Source: Micromonospora sp. HM5-17 (GTDB lineage Bacteria > Actinomycetota > Actinomycetes > Mycobacteriales > Micromonosporaceae). Taken from it: a stretch of DNA of 64,000 nt. Below are positions 34,620 to 48,180 of the stretch, one piece after another. Location of the stretch: NCBI RefSeq assembly GCF_003762835.1, contig NZ_RJWA01000010.1, forward strand, positions 62,001 through 126,000. Direction: 5' to 3'. The position numbers were made by a program, and so were the translations under genes. How positions within the stretch are numbered: the stretch's first letter is position 1; each line of letters starts with the position of its first letter. The notes under the pieces are model-generated. The model ran no database searches. It saw nothing but the letters and a program-made list of their open reading frames with translations, and had not been told where the DNA came from.

Positions 34620-37163
34620 ATGCTCACCGGCGTGGTGACGGACCCTCAGCGAGATCTAGTGATCGATGGCCTTCTAGCAAGGACCGAAGCCCGACGTGGT
34701 GCGGCGATGGCACTGCTTAACCCCGTCGAGCAGCGGGACCTGGGCCAATTCTTCACCCCTCGCGTGGTGGCCGAGCGCATCGCCGCAGAGCCGAGCCTGC
34801 CAAAAAGTGGCGTGCTCAGGGTGCTGGATCCGGGTGCCGGGTCCGGATCGTTGTCGGCCGCGTTGGTTGCCCGGGTGCTGCGAGAGCGGCCCGCTCTAAC
34901 GGTAGGGGTCACTGCGGTTGAACTGGCATCGGGGCTGCATGACACGCTGCGTCAGACCTTGGAAGACTGCCAGGAGACTGCGCGCGCCCTTGGCGGCCAG
35001 TTCAATTACGAGCTCGTCGCGGCGGATTTCATTCCATGGGCCGCCGCCCGGGTCTCCGGCGTGCTCGACCTGGTAGGTGAGCAGCCACGGTTCGACCTGG
35101 TGATCCAGAACCCCCCGTACCGGAAGGTAGCTCGCAGTTCGGCGGTGCGCCGTCACCTTCAATCTGTCGGATTAGACGTTCCGAACCTCTACGCGGCATT
35201 CCTCGCGCTCGGCGTGCACCTTCTCACCGAGGGTGGCCAACTCGTAGCCATCACCCCTCGTAGTTTCGCTAATGGCACATACTTCCGGCAATTTCGCAAG
35301 CAGTTCTTTTCCTTACTGGGCGTCGACCGTATCAACGTTTTCCAGGAACGAGGCGCACTGTTCGCCGATCTATCGGTGCTGCAAGAAAACATCATCTTGA
35401 CAGGCACGCGGGCTCGCCGCTCAGAGAAAGTCACCATTGTCACCTCACGCGGCTACGCTGACCCAACCCACGAGCGGCTAGTCACCTACGAGGACATCAT
35501 CCGGCCAGATGATCCCGAATCGTTCCTCCATATCCCTACAGACGTCGAGGACGATCGAGCGGCCGATATCGTCGCCGAACTCCCTGCCACGCTGGCCGAT
35601 CTCGGTCTCAACGTGTCAACCGGACGGGTCGTCGACTTCCGCGTCAAGGATGCGCTGCGAGCCATGCCGACTGCTGACACAGTGCCGTTGATCTATCCTG
35701 GTCATTTACAGAACGGTCGGGTGAATTGGCCACTGCCTGCGTACCGCAAGCCAAACGCCATCGTCGCCGACGCATCGACCGCCAGCCTGTTGCTACCCGC
35801 TGGTTATTACGTCCTAGTGAAGCGGTTCTCGGCCAAGGAGGAAACCAGGCGCGTGGTCGCCTCCGTATATCGGCCCGCCGACGTCCCGGCAGATCGGGTC
35901 GCGTTCGAAAACCACCTCAACGTCTTCCATCGTGATGGCAACGGCTTGGACGAGCCACTTGCGGTCGGTCTGGCGATCTGGCTCAACTCCAACGTGCTGG
36001 ACACCCACTTCCGCCAGTTCAGCGGCCACACGCAGGTCAATGCAACCGATCTGAGAAACCTTCGCTACCCTGATGCCGCGCAGCTGCGCCGCCTCAGCGA
36101 GAACGTCCGACCAGGCGAGTGGCCAAGCCAAGATGAGATCGACGCGCTTGTGCTGCAGCACGTTCTTGGCGGGGCCGACACGACGGAACAGGGAGGCACG
36201 GTGCCGCAGGACCAGGTAGCAGAGTCAGTGCAGCAGGCCCGCCAGTTGCTCGGTCGGCTCAACTTCGACGCAGAGCGCAGCAACGAGCGGTCAGCGCTGG
36301 TGCTGCGCGCCCTGCTCAACCTACTGCCCGACCAGCCGTGGGAAGCCGCTCAGAACCCCATGTTGCGCACCGTCGAGATCATGGACTTCCTACGGCAGCA
36401 CTACGGCCGCGATTACAAGCCCAACACGCGGGAGACGATCCGCAGGCAGACGTTGCACCAGTTCGCCGCTGCCGGCCTGGTTCTACAAAACCCCGACCGG
36501 CCCGACCGACCTGTCAACTCTCCTCGCTGGTGCTATCAGATCACCGACCGAGCTGTCGCTCTAATTCGGACCTTTGGCACACCCCGGTTCGCCGACGAGC
36601 TTCGTGCGTACCTGGCCGATCTCCCAGGCCAGCTGGAAGCCTACGCGGCGGAGAGGACCATGCGACGCATCCCGGTAACCCTCCCCGGAGGGCAAGAGAT
36701 TACCCTCAGCCCGGGCGGCCAAAACGAACTCCTCGACGCCATAGTCAAAGACTTCTGTAGCTACTTCACTCCGGGCGGGATTGCCCTATACGTCGGTGAC
36801 GCCGATGAGAAGTGGGCATTCTTCGACAACGATGCGCTCAAAGCGCTCGGCGTCACAGTTGACAAGCACGGCAAGATGCCCGACCTCGTCGTGTACATGG
36901 AAGACAAGAACTGGCTCGTTCTTCTAGAGGCAGCGTCCAGCCACGGACCCGTCGACGCCAAACGCCATGCCGAGTTGCAGACTCTCTTCGCGGGCTCCAC
37001 GGCCGGACTGGTCTTCGTCTCCTGTTTTCCCAGTCGCAAGGAGATGCGGAGGTACCTGCAGGAAATCTCGTGGGAGACCGAAGTATGGTGCGCCGACAAC
37101 CCAACGCACATGATCCACTTCAACGGCGAGCGGTTCCTCGGCCCATACCTGGCCCAGCCGTAG
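34620..37163 (+). CDS. Single-chain restriction-modification enzyme: Eco57I-like methyltransferase fused to BsuBI/PstI-like endonuclease (847 aa)
   Basis: N-terminal half: GQFFTPRVVAERIA (about 42-55), SAM motif DPGAGSGSL (70-78), NPPY (164-167), then an Eco57I-type target-recognition region. C-terminal 150 residues are a BsuBI/PstI endonuclease (from about 699: GGQNELLDAIVKDF, LYVGDADEKW, KMPDLVVYMEDKNWLVLLEA, SHGPV, TEVWCADNPTHMIHFNG), with PD 754-755 and E near 770 as the PD-(D/E)xK site. These activities are normally two proteins. Codon use is less GC-rich than its neighbours and it is opposite to the late operon, so it is a cargo gene. ATG at 34,620; a GTG at 34,635 is possible. Confidence 0.88.
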   Translation: MLTGVVTDPQRDLVIDGLLARTEARRGAAMALLNPVEQRDLGQFFTPRVVAERIAAEPSLPKSGVLRVLDPGAGSGSLSAALVARVLRERPALTVGVTAVELASGLHDTLRQTLEDCQETARALGGQFNYELVAADFIPWAAARVSGVLDLVGEQPRFDLVIQNPPYRKVARSSAVRRHLQSVGLDVPNLYAAFLALGVHLLTEGGQLVAITPRSFANGTYFRQFRKQFFSLLGVDRINVFQERGALFADLSVLQENIILTGTRARRSEKVTIVTSRGYADPTHERLVTYEDIIRPDDPESFLHIPTDVEDDRAADIVAELPATLADLGLNVSTGRVVDFRVKDALRAMPTADTVPLIYPGHLQNGRVNWPLPAYRKPNAIVADASTASLLLPAGYYVLVKRFSAKEETRRVVASVYRPADVPADRVAFENHLNVFHRDGNGLDEPLAVGLAIWLNSNVLDTHFRQFSGHTQVNATDLRNLRYPDAAQLRRLSENVRPGEWPSQDEIDALVLQHVLGGADTTEQGGTVPQDQVAESVQQARQLLGRLNFDAERSNERSALVLRALLNLLPDQPWEAAQNPMLRTVEIMDFLRQHYGRDYKPNTRETIRRQTLHQFAAAGLVLQNPDRPDRPVNSPRWCYQITDRAVALIRTFGTPRFADELRAYLADLPGQLEAYAAERTMRRIPVTLPGGQEITLSPGGQNELLDAIVKDFCSYFTPGGIALYVGDADEKWAFFDNDALKALGVTVDKHGKMPDLVVYMEDKNWLVLLEAASSHGPVDAKRHAELQTLFAGSTAGLVFVSCFPSRKEMRRYLQEISWETEVWCADNPTHMIHFNGERFLGPYLAQP

Positions 37164-38581: not shown

Positions 38582-38664
38582 TCATCCAAGATCATTTGCG
38601 CCAGTTGATTATGGAAGGTCAAAGACGTTGCGTCCCTGCGGGAGCCCGGTCCACGATCGACCGC

Positions 38665-40002
38665 ATGCCTACGCTCCGAAACCGCCGGCTTGAACAGCTC
38701 CTCGGTGGAGCAATCGACGAGACGCTGACCTACGCGCAGGTGAAGGGCCTCATCCCGCACACCGCCGAAGGCCCAGACCTGGACTTCAAGCGCGACACCT
38801 ACACGAGCAGCGACCGAGACCGAAAGGCCCTGTGCACCGATGTCGCCGCACTCGCGAACGCCAACGGCGGCATCCTCGTCCTCGGCATGGACGAGGACGA
38901 GCAAGGCCGCGCGGCAACCGATACCGGCGTCGTCATCAGCGACGACGAGCGGCGCCGGCTCCGACAGACAGTCGTCGGCAACATCCAGCCGACACCGACG
39001 TTCGACATCCTCCCCATCGAGGATCCCGATCGTCCAGGTACTGGCTTCCTCGTCATCTGGGTCGCGCGGTCGGCGACGGCGCCACACGCCTACGTCGCTC
39101 AGAACAAGTCGATGCTGTACCCGAAACGGATTGGTACTGAGACTGCCTGGTTGTCGGAGAGCGAAGTGGCCGAGGCGTACCGGGCACGGTTCGCCGGCTT
39201 CGCAAGCCGGATCGAGGAAGCAGCCCGGATCGAAGCGGACTTCGTTCAACGCCTCGCACCAGACGAGCTGTTCGTCGTCGTCACCCTCGTCCCGGACCTG
39301 CCAGGGTCTGCCACCATCAACAGCGCCGCGCTGAAGGCGTTCCAGATGCGTAACGCGAGCTGTGAAGTGGGCGCCTTCGGTATCCCAGTGGGCAAGTTCC
39401 ACCGATCGACAGTGCGCCGACGCTGCTTGGTAGGCACCGCATCGCTCGAGAGAAGCAAGCCGTACTCGCGTCTTGCGTGCGAGCTGCATGAGACCGGCAG
39501 CGGCGTGTTCGGCTGCGCGAAGATCGAGTCGCGTCCAGATGTCAAGGATCTGAAGGTCAAGCTCGCTGACAACCTGTGGCTCACACTTACCATCGGCACC
39601 GGCCTCAACCTTCTCGCCCGCCATGCGCGTGATCAAGCCGCAGCTGGCGGTCTGGCCACCGTCAGGACCACCATCTGGCCGGTCACGTCTGAGGTTCCAG
39701 TCTCGCTGGTCTCCAACGTCGGTTGGCGAAATGAGCCGGTCGGCGGCGAACTGGTAAGCGAGCCGCCGGTCGCCGAGACCGTCGCCGACATCGACGACTT
39801 GAGCGCTGGAGGGGCAGGTTTGGCAGCGGCAACCCACCGACTCGCTAGCGAACTGTTCCAGGCGTTCGGGGCAGCGGAGGCCGAAGGCGTGACCCCAGAG
39901 GGAGCAATCCGCCTTCCCTACTGGCATCAGGGCTGGCATGCCGAGATAAGCCGCTGGGCCGGGAGCTCTGGGGTTGAGGTGCTTCGGGAGGCCAACGCCT
40001 GA
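38665..40002 (+). CDS. AlbA_2 (Schlafen-like) ATP-binding domain protein, cargo gene (445 aa)
   Basis: Residues 32-80 (HTAEGPDLDFKRDTYTSSDRDRKALCTDVAALANANGGILVLGMDED) are the AlbA_2 signature: acidic/basic DFK motif, then the conserved ANANGG loop. The rest is a mixed alpha/beta C-terminus without a recognised domain. Such proteins appear in phage-defence islands and as prophage cargo. It is on the opposite strand, just beyond the terminase gene, and appears to have cut the promoter at 38,565. ATG at 38,665 with no clear ribosome binding site; ATG at 38,596 would extend it by 23 residues. Confidence 0.75.
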   Translation: MPTLRNRRLEQLLGGAIDETLTYAQVKGLIPHTAEGPDLDFKRDTYTSSDRDRKALCTDVAALANANGGILVLGMDEDEQGRAATDTGVVISDDERRRLRQTVVGNIQPTPTFDILPIEDPDRPGTGFLVIWVARSATAPHAYVAQNKSMLYPKRIGTETAWLSESEVAEAYRARFAGFASRIEEAARIEADFVQRLAPDELFVVVTLVPDLPGSATINSAALKAFQMRNASCEVGAFGIPVGKFHRSTVRRRCLVGTASLERSKPYSRLACELHETGSGVFGCAKIESRPDVKDLKVKLADNLWLTLTIGTGLNLLARHARDQAAAGGLATVRTTIWPVTSEVPVSLVSNVGWRNEPVGGELVSEPPVAETVADIDDLSAGGAGLAAATHRLASELFQAFGAAEAEGVTPEGAIRLPYWHQGWHAEISRWAGSSGVEVLREANA

Positions 40003-40010
40003 TCTACCTG

Positions 40011-41408
40011 TCATCGCGCGTCCGCCTGCAGGCGAGCCCGGTGACCGAGTGGCGACGCAACGACGGCCCGCCGAGTTTCCTTGCTGCGCAGGTACGTCAC
40101 CCCGTGCACGAGCGCGTCCAGCCGGTCCGGCGAGTCCCCGGACTCCGGCGTCCAGGTCGTCAGCTGGTCCTCTAGCGCCGGGAACGCGCCGACGTGGTGC
40201 ACCCGGGGCGGGTCGACCTCGTACCGGGCCGCGACCGGCTCCGCCCGGACCCGCTTGCTCGCCCGGGGCTGCACCACGTCGATCGGCGGGTCGCCGCCGG
40301 GCAGCAGTCCCTCCCGCTGCATCGCGATCCAGGCGTCGACGAGGATGTCCCGCATCCACACCGACGAGCCCTCGACGATCACCACGTCGGCGTCGACATC
40401 GATGTAGCACTGCCAGATCCGGCGGCCGGCCGCCATGCCGGCGATCTTCATCGACCGGTCGGCCAGCACGTAGTGGTCGCCGTCCTCGCCCCGGCCCACC
40501 GCGACGATGCCCGTCTCGTCGCTCGTCTCCGACACCGTGTCGGCCGGGTCGACCGACACCACGGTCCGGACCAGGGGCGGCACGTCGTCCTTGTCGACCC
40601 GGCCGGCCTCGATCCATGCCGACTTCCACAGCGCGCCCTCGACGTCGGTCAGCAGCTCGGCGTCCAGCTCCTGCCGGCCGAGCCGGGTGCCGCCGTACTG
40701 CTCCAGCAGCTCCTCCAGCGCCTCCGGGCTCAGGTTCGCCGCGTTGTCCAGCGTCCGGCCGCGCGTGATGACCACCCGGGGGCGCCTGGACCGGGCCTTC
40801 TGTTTCGCCGCCCGCGTCAGCAGCTTCTTGATGTGCGGCAGCGGCTTCGGGGTCGTGCTGATGACCATGCGCGGGTTCTCGGCCTCGCGCATGCAGAACC
40901 AGAGCATGTCGAACACGCCCTGCGCCGTCTGCACCGGCCAGGCGGCGTACTCGTCGCACCACACGCCGTCGAAGTCGTAGCCGCGCAGCACGTCGGGGTC
41001 CTGCGCGCCGAAGCCGCGGATGATCGACCCGTTGCGGAGCATCACGTAGGGCTCCGACTTGTTGAACGTCGCCACCTCGCGAGGCGGAATGACCGCGAGG
41101 AGCCCGGCCCGCCGGGCGGTGAAGCAGACGTTGTAGACCTCGCGGTGCGTCTTCGCGACGACCGCATAGTGCCCGCCCGGCCGCGCGGCGGCCCACTTCC
41201 GGACCGTCTCCGCGCCGGTGCGGGTCTTGCCGAAGCCGCGACCGGCGAGCAGCATCCAGATCCGGTACCAGGCGGGCTCCAACTGCTCTGGCCGGGCGTG
41301 CCGGGGCCAGTCGTAGCGCAGGTTGCCCTGCACCTCCGAAACCACGCGCAGGTAGGCGGCCAGCTCGGCGTCGGACATCAACGCCGGATCCGGGTACGCC
41401 AGCAGCAT
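40011..41408 (-). CDS. Terminase large subunit (465 aa)
   Basis: ATP-driven DNA packaging motor and nuclease. Walker A GRGFGKT (56-62), Walker B DGVWCDEYAAW with catalytic Glu 153, and the RNase-H-like nuclease starting with VVSVDPAD (Asp 288) and ending with the DALVHGVTYL region. Full length for the family. Three bp separate it from the upstream membrane gene; nine bp separate its stop from the convergent AlbA_2 gene. Confidence 0.95.
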   Translation of the reverse strand: MLLAYPDPALMSDAELAAYLRVVSEVQGNLRYDWPRHARPEQLEPAWYRIWMLLAGRGFGKTRTGAETVRKWAAARPGGHYAVVAKTHREVYNVCFTARRAGLLAVIPPREVATFNKSEPYVMLRNGSIIRGFGAQDPDVLRGYDFDGVWCDEYAAWPVQTAQGVFDMLWFCMREAENPRMVISTTPKPLPHIKKLLTRAAKQKARSRRPRVVITRGRTLDNAANLSPEALEELLEQYGGTRLGRQELDAELLTDVEGALWKSAWIEAGRVDKDDVPPLVRTVVSVDPADTVSETSDETGIVAVGRGEDGDHYVLADRSMKIAGMAAGRRIWQCYIDVDADVVIVEGSSVWMRDILVDAWIAMQREGLLPGGDPPIDVVQPRASKRVRAEPVAARYEVDPPRVHHVGAFPALEDQLTTWTPESGDSPDRLDALVHGVTYLRSKETRRAVVASPLGHRARLQADAR

Positions 41409-41825: not shown

Positions 41826-41971
41826 CAGGCCGCCACCAGCCACACGCACCCGACGGCGGCCAAGCCCAGCAGCACCGACCCCACCGCCACACACCACACC
41901 GCCCACCGGGGGGCGCGTACCTCGACCACGATCCACACCTGCCCGTCATTCCTGCGGCGCCGACTCGCCAT
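41822..41971 (-). CDS. 49-aa single-membrane-segment protein
   Basis: ATG at 41,971, TGA at 41,822-41,824. A basic N-terminus (SRRRRN) and one membrane helix (WAVWCVAVGSVLLGLAAVG). It overlaps the terminase small subunit by 26 bp and the next gene by 4 bp. The tight coupling supports a real gene. Confidence 0.6.
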   Translation of the reverse strand: MASRRRRNDGQVWIVVEVRAPRWAVWCVAVGSVLLGLAAVGCVWLVAAW

Positions 41972-42569
41972 CGGTCGCCTCCTCCGTGTCGTCGGCGTCG
42001 CCCGGCCCGTCGTCGCCGCTGTCCGGGCTGGACAGGCCGGCGCGGGACTGCGCCTCGGCGATCAGCGCCCGGAAGAACTCGGCCCGCTGCTCCTCACTCA
42101 TCTGGCTGACCTCGGCCTGGATCGGGCCGCCGTCGGGCCCGGTGTGCGCGGTCGTCGAGTCCGGCAGCCCGAGGGCCAGCCGCTCGACCCGGGTCGCCAC
42201 TTCCAGCCACCGCGCGATGTCGTTGGGCGTCAGCGCCGCCGGGTCGAGGGACTGCAACCGGGCGACGATCTTCGCCTGCAGCGCGGACGCGATGCGGGCG
42301 TGCCGCTCGGCCATGTCCCGGCGCCGCTCGGCCAGGCCCTCGCTGTAGAGGCGGTCCTGCTCGCGGTCCCACGCCTGCGCCCGCTGCACCCACCGCCAGG
42401 TGCTCGCCAGCTTGTGGAGGTAGTCCCGGGATTTGTGGACCTCGGCGGCGGCCTTCGCGACGGTGCGGGTGCGACCGAGGTCCCGGTACAGGGCGAAGTA
42501 CGAGTACGCCTTCTCGGGCTCGTCGTCCTGCCTGTCCCACGGGAGGACCGCCTGCTCGGTCACGGTCAC
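41946..42569 (-). CDS. Terminase small subunit-like protein (207 aa)
   Basis: Residues about 20-65 (YSYFALYRDLGRTRTVAKAAAEVHKSRDYLHKLASTWRWVQRA) form the DNA-binding helix-turn-helix, followed by an oligomerisation coiled coil (RRRDMAERHARIASALQAKIVARLQ) and an acidic tail. It sits directly upstream of the large subunit module, as expected. Confidence 0.8.
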   Translation of the reverse strand: MTVTEQAVLPWDRQDDEPEKAYSYFALYRDLGRTRTVAKAAAEVHKSRDYLHKLASTWRWVQRAQAWDREQDRLYSEGLAERRRDMAERHARIASALQAKIVARLQSLDPAALTPNDIARWLEVATRVERLALGLPDSTTAHTGPDGGPIQAEVSQMSEEQRAEFFRALIAEAQSRAGLSSPDSGDDGPGDADDTEEATDGESAPQE

Positions 42570-42644: not shown

Positions 42645-42932
42645 TCAGTGGCCTGCGGGTCGGGCGCTGGGCATCGGGGGTCGGGCGATCGCCGCGTTGC
42701 CGTACATCAGGGCGTCGTCGAGGGCGGTGAGCACCAGCGAGGATTCGCGGCCGGGCGGCAGGCTGCGCATCGCCTCGGCCATGAGCACCTTCACCGCGGC
42801 CCGCCACCGGGCGTGCCGCTCGGCGGTGGCCAGGTCGGCGGGTGGGTGGTAGTCGCAGCGTCGGTCGAGTTCGGCGCGCTGCCGCTCGTCCAGGCCGGCG
42901 TACAGGTCGTTGTCGGGGGCGGTGCTGGTCAT
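42645..42932 (-). CDS. Acb2/Tad1-like hairpin protein, candidate anti-CBASS sponge (95 aa)
   Basis: Residues 26-84 follow the Acb2/Tad1 hairpin pattern: CDYHPP, then a helix (TAERHARWRAAVKVLMAEAM), LPPGRESSLVLTALDDALMYGNAAIARP. The GRE-SL-LT-L-(D/E)-A-MYxNAAIAR segment is the best-conserved stretch of that family, whose known members trap cyclic nucleotides and block CBASS or Thoeris immunity. The ATG at 42,932 has AGGAGGA before it and a 35-bp dyad directly upstream, at the head of the terminase operon. Activity is inferred from the motif only. Confidence 0.75.
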   Translation of the reverse strand: MTSTAPDNDLYAGLDERQRAELDRRCDYHPPADLATAERHARWRAAVKVLMAEAMRSLPPGRESSLVLTALDDALMYGNAAIARPPMPSARPAGH

Positions 42933-42941
42933 GGTCTCCTC

Positions 42942-42976
42942 CTGTGCGGTCGCGGTGGTTTATTGCGGCCGTCTTG
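42942..42976. promoter_or_regulatory. 35-bp dyad element, copy 4
   Basis: CTGTGCGGT (42,942-42,950) and GCCGTCTTG (42,968-42,976) with the inner TTATTGCG block. Ten bp before the ATG of the Acb2-like gene; its left arm overlaps the AGGAGGA ribosome binding site. Confidence 0.65.
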
Positions 42977-43054
42977 ATCATGCGCCGGCTGGCGCGGGGT
43001 GTGCGGGACCGGCGGGCTGACTGGTGGGTCAGGTCCGCCGGGGCCCGGTGTGGG

Positions 43055-43966
43055 TCAGCTGGCCAGGTAGTCGGCGGCCAGCAGTTCCAGGGCGCGCCAC
43101 CGCTGGTCGGCGGGGACCTCGCCCTTGCGGACCATGCGGTCGACGGCCCGGGCGAGCACGGCGCCGGCGTCGGCCGGCATCGAGCGGGTGCCGAGGATCG
43201 TCTCGATGGGGACGAGGCGTCGAGCGTCGACGGGCTCGCTGGTGTCTGGGTCGAGCCAGGCGTCCCGCAGCTCGTCGAGGTGCCGCTCGAACACCGCCAG
43301 GATGAGGCCGAGGGCGGTGGCTACGTTGCCGACGTTGTGGGCGCCGTGGGCGGTTGCGAGGGCGTCGAGGGTGGTCTCGTAGTCGGCGTAGGCGGCGAGC
43401 CAGCGGGCGTCGGCTTGGACGAGCTTGCGGGCCTCGTCGAACGAGGCGCGGGCGGCGTCCAGCTCGTGGGGCAGGAACACGAGCTGGACGGTGGCGAAGT
43501 CGAGGTTGGCCTCGCTCAGGCCCTCCAGGTCGACCTGGGCGAGCAGGTCGAGCTGCTTGTCGTCGAGGCCGGAGTAGGCCCGCCAGTCGACGTCGTCCAG
43601 CTCCTCGTACAGCTGCCGCAGCGTGGCCGGGTCGTCCTCGCCTTCGATCGCGTTGTGGGACAGCTGCAGCGCGACCTGCCGGGCGCGGGACAGCGGCTGG
43701 TCGACCACGATGACGTCGACCTGCTCCAGGCCGACCTCGCGGGCGGCCATGATCCGGTGGTTGCCGGACAGCACCACCATCCGGCCGGTGGCCTGGTCGT
43801 TCCACACTAGCGGTGTGCTGGTGAGCGCCCCGTCGCGGCGTATGTTGGCCACGAGCCGGTCGAACACCTCTTTGCGCATGAACCGCGCGTTCACCTCGAC
43901 GAGCGTGAGCTCGCGCGGGTCGACCGTCTCGCGGCGCAGGTTCAGCGGTCCCTCGTCGTCGCTCAT
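43055..43966 (-). CDS. ParB-like (ParB/sulfiredoxin fold) phage protein (303 aa)
   Basis: N-terminal ParB nuclease-like domain: VEVNARFMRKEVFDRLVANIRRDG, PLVWNDQATGRMVVLSGNHRIMAAREVGLEQVDVIVV (GNHR box) and VALQLSHNAIEGEDD. The C-terminal half is helical and acidic. ATG at 43,966, ATGA overlap with the modification gene. Genes of this kind often sit beside phage DNA-modification enzymes, so the pair probably acts together on phage DNA. Confidence 0.85.
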   Translation of the reverse strand: MSDDEGPLNLRRETVDPRELTLVEVNARFMRKEVFDRLVANIRRDGALTSTPLVWNDQATGRMVVLSGNHRIMAAREVGLEQVDVIVVDQPLSRARQVALQLSHNAIEGEDDPATLRQLYEELDDVDWRAYSGLDDKQLDLLAQVDLEGLSEANLDFATVQLVFLPHELDAARASFDEARKLVQADARWLAAYADYETTLDALATAHGAHNVGNVATALGLILAVFERHLDELRDAWLDPDTSEPVDARRLVPIETILGTRSMPADAGAVLARAVDRMVRKGEVPADQRWRALELLAADYLAS

Positions 43967-46065: not shown

Positions 46066-46095
46066 GCGTCACCACCTTCCCCCGTGGCGGCGTCG

Positions 46096-46167
46096 AGCGC
46101 CGGCCAGGGCTCGAACCTGGGCCTCCGCCGTGGAACGGCGGCGTGCCACCAACAGCACTTCCAGCGC
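46096..46167 (-). tRNA. Prophage tRNA-Gly (anticodon UCC)
   Basis: Cloverleaf by eye: acceptor GCGCTGG with CCGGCGC (one G-T pair), D stem GTGC/GCAC with GG in the loop, anticodon stem CCGCC/GGCGG with loop GTTCCAC, T arm CCAGG-TTCGAGC-CCTGG, discriminator T as in bacterial Gly tRNAs. 72 nt, CCA not encoded. It reads GGA/GGG codons and lies 31 bp before the modification gene. Confidence 0.8.
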
Positions 46168-46609: not shown

Positions 46610-47836
46610 CTACCCGACAGCACCCCCCACGGTGCTCAGCTTGTCGACGCCGAGGAAGCCGCCAACGATCCGGCGGACCGGCTCGTGGTGCTTCCGGGTG
46701 GCGTGCACGTACACGTTCAGCGTCGTCGTGACGCTCTTGTGCCCGGCCATCGTCTTGAGCGCTGCCAGGTCCACACCCTCGGTCGCGAGCAGCGTCAGCA
46801 TCGAGTGGCGCAGCCCGTGCATCGTCATCCGGCGGGGCAGTCCCTTCTCCCGCGCCAGGTCGCGGATCTTCACCCACCGGCCCTCGTAGAAGTCCTCGTA
46901 CCGCCAGTGGTTGCCGCGCGGGGCGACGAACACGAACTCGCGGCCTGGCTGCGCGGCGCGTTCGGCGACCAGCTGCATCACCTGGTGCGGCAGCGGCACC
47001 TCCCGGTAGCCCTGCTGCGTCTTCGGCTTGGGCTCCACCACCCACCTGCGGTTGACCTTCCGCAGTACCTGCACGATCTCGATCGTGCCGAGCCTGGGCC
47101 GGACTGCCCGGGGCGGCAGCGCGCTCACTTCGCCCCACCGCAGGCCGGAGGCGAGCTTGGTCAGCAGCAGGTCCGCTGCCTCCGGGTCGACCTCGTACGC
47201 CGCCTCGAGGAAGATCCTCGCCTCGTCGGGGCTTTCCAGGATGTCCCGCTCATGCCGAGCCGCCTCGGGCAGCGGTAGCCCGTCCATCGGGTTGTACGTG
47301 CGCAGCGCTGGCTCCTCGTCCTCGCCCGGCAGGCAGGCGGCCCGGAAGATCGGCACGATCGTCTCGCCTCGGATGTTCGCGATCGTCTTCGGGGACAGTC
47401 CGGCGTCCAGCAGGGCGATCTGCCACTCGCGCATCTCGCGTCGGGTGATCGCGGCGATCGGCCGGTCGCCGAGCCGCGGGAAGACGTGCTTCTCCAGCCG
47501 CTCGAGGTATTTCCGCTTCGTCTCCGGGTGCGGCTTGATGAGGGTGCTCAGCCAGTCGAGCGCGTACTCCCGGAACGTGACCTGGCGCTCCGGCTCGGGC
47601 GTGACTGGAGCGGGTCCGGTACCGGCGGGTGCGAGGTAGCCGAAGCCGTGCTCGTGCAGCTGCTCGGTGGGCGGCATGTGGTCGCCGTTCGCGTCGACGA
47701 GCGCCTTGAAGCGCTTGGCGTCAGTGTGGGTGTCGAACTGCCTGCCGTCCCAGTCGCCGGTGCCGCCGATGCGCCACTTCACCCGCCACCGATGCGTCTT
47801 GCCGTCCTTGTACGTGCGTTTCTCGATCGATGCCAC
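46610..47836 (-). CDS. Tyrosine integrase (408 aa)
   Basis: N-terminal arm-binding domain (ASIEKRTYKDGKTHRWRVKW), SAM-like core-binding domain (FREYALDWLSTLI ... LERLEKHVFPRLGDRPIAAIT), and catalytic domain with SGLRWGEV (Arg), MHGLRHSML (His-x-x-Arg), GHKS (His) and NVYVH (Tyr nucleophile). GTG at 47,836 follows an AGGAGC ribosome binding site; the longer frame would run into the 35-bp dyad. It integrates the phage at the tRNA-Leu gene 260 bp away. Confidence 0.93.
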   Translation of the reverse strand: MASIEKRTYKDGKTHRWRVKWRIGGTGDWDGRQFDTHTDAKRFKALVDANGDHMPPTEQLHEHGFGYLAPAGTGPAPVTPEPERQVTFREYALDWLSTLIKPHPETKRKYLERLEKHVFPRLGDRPIAAITRREMREWQIALLDAGLSPKTIANIRGETIVPIFRAACLPGEDEEPALRTYNPMDGLPLPEAARHERDILESPDEARIFLEAAYEVDPEAADLLLTKLASGLRWGEVSALPPRAVRPRLGTIEIVQVLRKVNRRWVVEPKPKTQQGYREVPLPHQVMQLVAERAAQPGREFVFVAPRGNHWRYEDFYEGRWVKIRDLAREKGLPRRMTMHGLRHSMLTLLATEGVDLAALKTMAGHKSVTTTLNVYVHATRKHHEPVRRIVGGFLGVDKLSTVGGAVG

Positions 47837-47901
47837 TGCTCCTGGTCCTCCACGTGAAGCAGGCGGCCGGATCGCCTCAAAGCCATGCCGCCCGCGCGCA
47901 C

Positions 47902-47936
47902 CTACATGCGCAGCAGTGGGACCGTAGCCGTACATC
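47902..47936. promoter_or_regulatory. 35-bp dyad element, copy 7
   Basis: CTACATGCG on the left, GTAGCCGTACATC on the right; the right arm is well conserved. Lies 66 bp before the integrase start, so the same factor could control lysogeny. Confidence 0.55.
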
Positions 47937-47983
47937 CTGCTGGAGCGCAAAACGCGCCCACGAGCCCGTCGGATGGACGGCTC

Positions 47984-48011: not shown

Positions 48012-48096
48012 TGGCGGCAGCGAACCCAGAAACGATCAAGGCCGCTGACCCGAGTTCTGCCAGGTCAACGGCCTAATTTCTTCGTACCCTGATTGG

Positions 48097-48180
48097 TGTC
48101 CGAGGGGGGACTTGAACCCCCACGCCCTATACGGGCACTAGCACCTCAAGCTAGCGCGTCTGCCATTCCGCCACCCGGAC
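48097..48180 (-). tRNA. tRNA-Leu (anticodon GAG), integration target
   Basis: Acceptor GTCCGGG with CTCGGAC, anticodon stem CTAGC/GCTAG with loop TTGAGGT, long variable arm and T arm GGGGG-TTCAAGT-CCCCC; CCA is encoded at 48,094-48,096. The gene is intact on the chromosome side of the integrase, so attR core probably lies in its 3' half (about 48,094-48,130). The partner attL is outside the window. Confidence 0.93.

Follow-up and report, generated by a model that had tools for sequence, protein, structure and literature searches.

Does the short open reading frame in front of the terminase genes of a Micromonospora prophage encode a protein of the Acb2/Tad1 family, whose members serve phages as sponges for the small nucleotide signals that raise the alarm in bacterial immunity, and if so, which signal would it take up? 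The question arose from a sequence-only reading of a 64,000-nucleotide stretch of the genome of Micromonospora sp. HM5-17 (hereafter the window), which assigned the product of positions 42645-42932 to this family. The features of the window on which our analysis is based are the following, all on the minus strand.

40011-41408 (-), terminase large subunit (PF03237, E 6.6e-19; PHROG terminase)
41946-42569 (-), terminase small subunit (phrog_6299, E 4.6e-27)
42645-42932 (-), acb2-like gene, putative Acb2/Tad1-hairpin family protein of 95 aa (PF24729, phrog_1454, PDB profile, AF2 model)
42936-42942 (-), Shine-Dalgarno sequence GGAGGAG of the acb2-like gene (sequence)
42948-42970 (-), conserved 23-nt dyad GGCCGCAATAAACCACCGCGACC, directly 5' of the Shine-Dalgarno sequence (alignment with nine relatives)
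about 43004-43047 (-), strong GC-rich hairpin 3' of the ParB-like gene (fold; the sequence differs in relatives)
43055-43966 (-), ParB-N-like protein, gene directly upstream of the acb2-like gene (PF02195, E 2.4e-4, below the cut-off; synteny)
46610-47950 (-), tyrosine integrase, right prophage end (PF00589, E 3.3e-17)

The acb2-like open reading frame starts with an ATG at 42932, 3 bases downstream of the Shine-Dalgarno sequence, and its 95-aa product contains the segment LPPGRESSLVLTALDDALMYGNAAIARP that the sequence-only reading had quoted. The GC contents at codon positions 1, 2, and 3 are 0.75, 0.56, and 0.92, respectively, and the protein shares 68-76% identity with its Micromonosporaceae relatives. 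In comparisons with six relatives, dN was approximately 0.13-0.19 and dS approximately 0.41-0.79, giving a dN/dS of approximately 0.2-0.3. The fact that dN is well below dS in all six comparisons indicates that the protein is under purifying selection. The high third-position GC, the conserved relatives, and the excess of dS over dN together led us to conclude that the open reading frame is a real gene.

The search with the Acb2/Tad1 hairpin model, which the sequence-only reading had proposed as a check, gave a match to PF24729 (E 3e-12) covering the profile over its full length (1-58 of 58) with 47 bits, against a curated cut-off of 27 bits. The hairpin domain corresponds to residues 27-84 of the protein. 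The protein also matched phrog_1454 (E 3e-16), a family without assigned function. Two profiles built from the relatives, independently of Pfam, found 9ptq ("Acb2 homolog 43") as the best solved match (E 1.6e-7 and 2.7e-8), followed weakly by Tad1 chains (E 0.006-0.07). A single-sequence phmmer comparison with 9ptq was non-significant (E 0.56), and an NCBIfam search returned nothing relevant, with TIGR02574 at 0.03 lying below the cut-off. A tblastn search detected relatives in 277 phage records, chiefly of Mycobacterium, Paenibacillus, and Gordonia phages, and the features underlying the matches listed are annotated as "hypothetical protein". The full-length PF24729 match and the recovery of the Acb2 homologue 9ptq by the relatives-based profiles bear out the proposal that the segment fits the Acb2/Tad1 hairpin pattern, and thus support, at the level of sequence profiles, membership of the product in this family.

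An AlphaFold2 model of the single chain, computed from 22 sequences (mean pLDDT of 88), consists of helices at residues 16-26, 34-57, and 62-83 and contains no strands. Acb2 is composed of a short N-terminal helix and two long antiparallel helices, whereas Tad1 has an N-terminal antiparallel β-sheet followed by two long C-terminal helices (PMC12043709). Compared with these descriptions, the architecture of the acb2-like protein is predicted to be of the Acb2 type and not of the Tad1 type, and Tad1 in the narrow sense was rejected, as the model lacks β-sheet strands. A Foldseek search with the model gave no significant structural match, with T4 Vs.4 (7uq2) appearing at E 5.6. The VIA comparison gave the same structure a Z of 5.8, a score that unrelated helical bundles also reached. 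Neither method was decisive for this small helical hairpin, and 9ptq was absent from both the Foldseek and the VIA-align results. The fold searches do not set the model apart from other helical bundles. Our identification rests on the sequence profiles.

The residues involved in ligand binding in T4 Acb2 were then sought in the window protein. The sequence of T4 Acb2 (Vs.4), taken from the T4 record, matches PF24729 with 71 bits, and the profile starts at residue 7 in T4 Acb2 and at residue 27 in the window protein. According to this shared start, Y8 of T4 Acb2 corresponds to Y28; in the alignment, T68 of T4 Acb2 falls on T69, the sole invariant column. In T4 Acb2, the Y8A mutant is binding-deficient and the T68M mutant shows lower binding (PMC12657230). 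Both binding-sensitive positions thus match residues of the same type in the window protein. The direct identity between the two proteins is only about 15%, and the position of Y28 is occupied by histidine in three near relatives, so that the tyrosine is not strictly kept; the correspondence should accordingly be taken as support, not as proof.

The small terminase gene follows the acb2-like gene on the same strand after a gap of 75 bp. The gene order ParB-like, Acb2-like, TerS, and TerL was found in all seven related loci (L002-L008), in which the Acb2-like proteins are likewise 68-76% identical; two of the seven, L003 and L007, carry the same Acb2-like protein and may represent one strain. 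Genes for portal, head morphogenesis, major head, tail, and tape measure proteins lie to the left of the terminases, at 6-34 kb of the window, and the integrase gene lies to the right beside a tRNA-Leu gene. Judged from this gene content, the element is a siphovirus-like prophage rather than a capsid-less remnant; the idea of a capsid-less satellite was dropped after the portal, head, and tail genes had been found.

Several other features of the prophage were observed. The tRNA-Leu (gag) gene (48094-48180, minus strand) adjoining the integrase gene probably serves as the attachment site. A search of the rest of the window for a direct repeat of its end gave none of at least 16 bases, and attL may therefore be situated beyond the window. 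A tRNA-Gly (tcc) gene (46095-46167, minus strand) is located inside the prophage, between a DAM-like gene and an excisionase-like ORF. The DAM-like/GNAT phage gene (43963-46065, minus strand) is interrupted by an in-frame insert of approximately 247 residues (about residues 177-423) with a weak LAGLIDADG match. In six related loci (L002-L007), the insert is absent and the two halves are contiguous; on these grounds the insert has the appearance of an intein that carries a homing endonuclease. The gene at 34620-37163 (plus strand) encodes one protein in which an Eco57I/N6 methylase part is combined with a BsuBI/PstI restriction endonuclease part. It lies on the strand opposite to the late genes, has a lower third-position GC, and is likely to be a recent restriction-modification cargo of the prophage. 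A Schlafen/AlbA_2-domain protein is encoded at 38596-40002 (plus strand), next to the large terminase gene and on the strand opposite to it; it is present in the related loci L003, L005, and L007 and unmatched in others.

Both the GC-rich hairpin and the 23-nt dyad are situated between the ParB-like gene and the acb2-like gene. The dyad (pattern GGCCGCARTnnnnnACTGYGGCC) occupies the corresponding position in nine relatives, where it shows some compensatory changes; it is imperfect in the window and better in the relatives. In the alignment, 82.5% of the cells were paired, against 25-45% when the pairing frame was slid; the covariation is weak, as 8 of 500 shuffles reached the observed score (ten related sequences). 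The dyad may possibly serve as an operator or as a hairpin in the 5' UTR. A search of the rest of the window with the relatives-based consensus, allowing up to 3 mismatches, gave no excess of copies over shuffled sequences; by that test, the dyad is not a repeated operator of the prophage. The sequence-only reading had placed the gene at the head of the terminase operon. This description is fair, but the upstream gene lies on the same strand, so that a promoter at this place is only putative.

In order to look for possible immune targets, the lysogen and its family were searched for domains of signal-based defence. The lysogen's own genome (96% complete) gave no match to SMODS, AGS-C, ThsB_TIR, or TIR_2, and none to SAVED in a search that had no positive control. 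Among 300 genomes of the host family, Micromonosporaceae, an SMODS nucleotidyltransferase was found above the cut-off in 33, although SMODS domains are not all CBASS, and the PF24729 family was found above the cut-off in 16. The 33 genomes suggest that targets of the acb2-like protein may exist in the host family.

Taken together, we consider it highly probable that the product of the gene is a sponge protein of the Acb2 type, belonging to a temperate siphovirus-like phage that has integrated into a Micromonosporaceae genome. The hairpin-family homology, the predicted Acb2-like fold, the purifying selection, and the fixed place upstream of the terminases are the observations that carry this reading. 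By analogy with the family, the protein would form a hexamer and would bind cyclic di- and/or trinucleotides, possibly also gcADPR, without cutting them. Sequestration of the ligand would keep CBASS or related effectors inactive while the phage replicates, either after infection or upon prophage induction.

The ligand could also be a different one. Tad1 binds CDNs and CTNs as well (PMC12043709), and specificity therefore does not follow the fold; the protein might belong to the family by descent and be aimed mainly at the Thoeris signal gcADPR, as Tad1 is, or at some other signal, instead of CBASS nucleotides. The coverage of both Acb2 and Tad1 by PF24729 and the weak profile matches to Tad1 chains agree with this idea, but the predicted model lacks the N-terminal β-sheet of Tad1 and the host genome contains no TIR_2 or ThsB_TIR match, and we regard it as unlikely. 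The Micromonosporaceae branch has N-terminal and C-terminal extensions of its own and a fixed place under the conserved dyad before the terminase genes. There is a rather slim chance that this branch has changed its ligand and sequesters a signal of actinobacterial defence that is bound by no characterised sponge.

That the acb2-like gene adjoins TerS in all near relatives raises another alternative, namely that the family fold has been kept while the protein now acts as an accessory factor of DNA packaging. The fixed order across the seven related loci would fit such a role. A fixed synteny, however, is usual among close phages, distant actinophage homologues are placed elsewhere (beside ThyX, endonuclease VII, or ClpP-like genes, or at the left end of the genome), and Y28 and T69, the positions linked to the ligand, are retained; a packaging role is thus very improbable. 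We give practically no credence to the view that the open reading frame is spurious or that its family match is a chance likeness of a two-helix hairpin. Overlapping ORFs are indeed numerous in high-GC sequence, and the fold searches showed that a two-helix fold is by itself undistinctive, but the significance and full length of the match to a curated family, the conserved relatives with their low dN/dS, and the retained Shine-Dalgarno sequence are at odds with it, and the family match and the selection together refute it.

The sponge reading adds a well-supported putative Acb2-type protein to the prophages of Micromonosporaceae, a group in which CBASS-type nucleotidyltransferase domains occur, and the protein would be useful for testing which ligands actinophage sponges bind. 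Compared with Acb2 (T4 Vs.4 and Pseudomonas phage gp24, an anti-CBASS sponge), the window protein shares the full-length Pfam hairpin domain and, in its model, the short N-terminal helix and two long antiparallel helices, and differs in its longer N-terminus (YAGLDERQ...) and conserved C-terminal tail (RPPM..R..GH). Acb2 homolog 43 (9ptq), the closest solved relative in the profile searches, has a shorter N-terminus (76 aa). Tad1 (Thoeris anti-defence 1) shares the Pfam hairpin family and a local match (REN..ALT..EALMW.N), and its N-terminal antiparallel β-sheet is absent from the window protein model. Genes of the actinophages Statler, Xandras, and BigBubba have published annotations as proteins that sequester cyclic oligonucleotides or antagonise CBASS, a role that both reports treat as putative (PMC13348362, PMC11953737). 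The window gene resembles them in its actinobacteriophage origin and its proposed sequestering function, and they belong to different phage clusters. What sets the window gene apart is mainly the Micromonosporaceae-type extensions at both termini of its product and its fixed place before the terminases.
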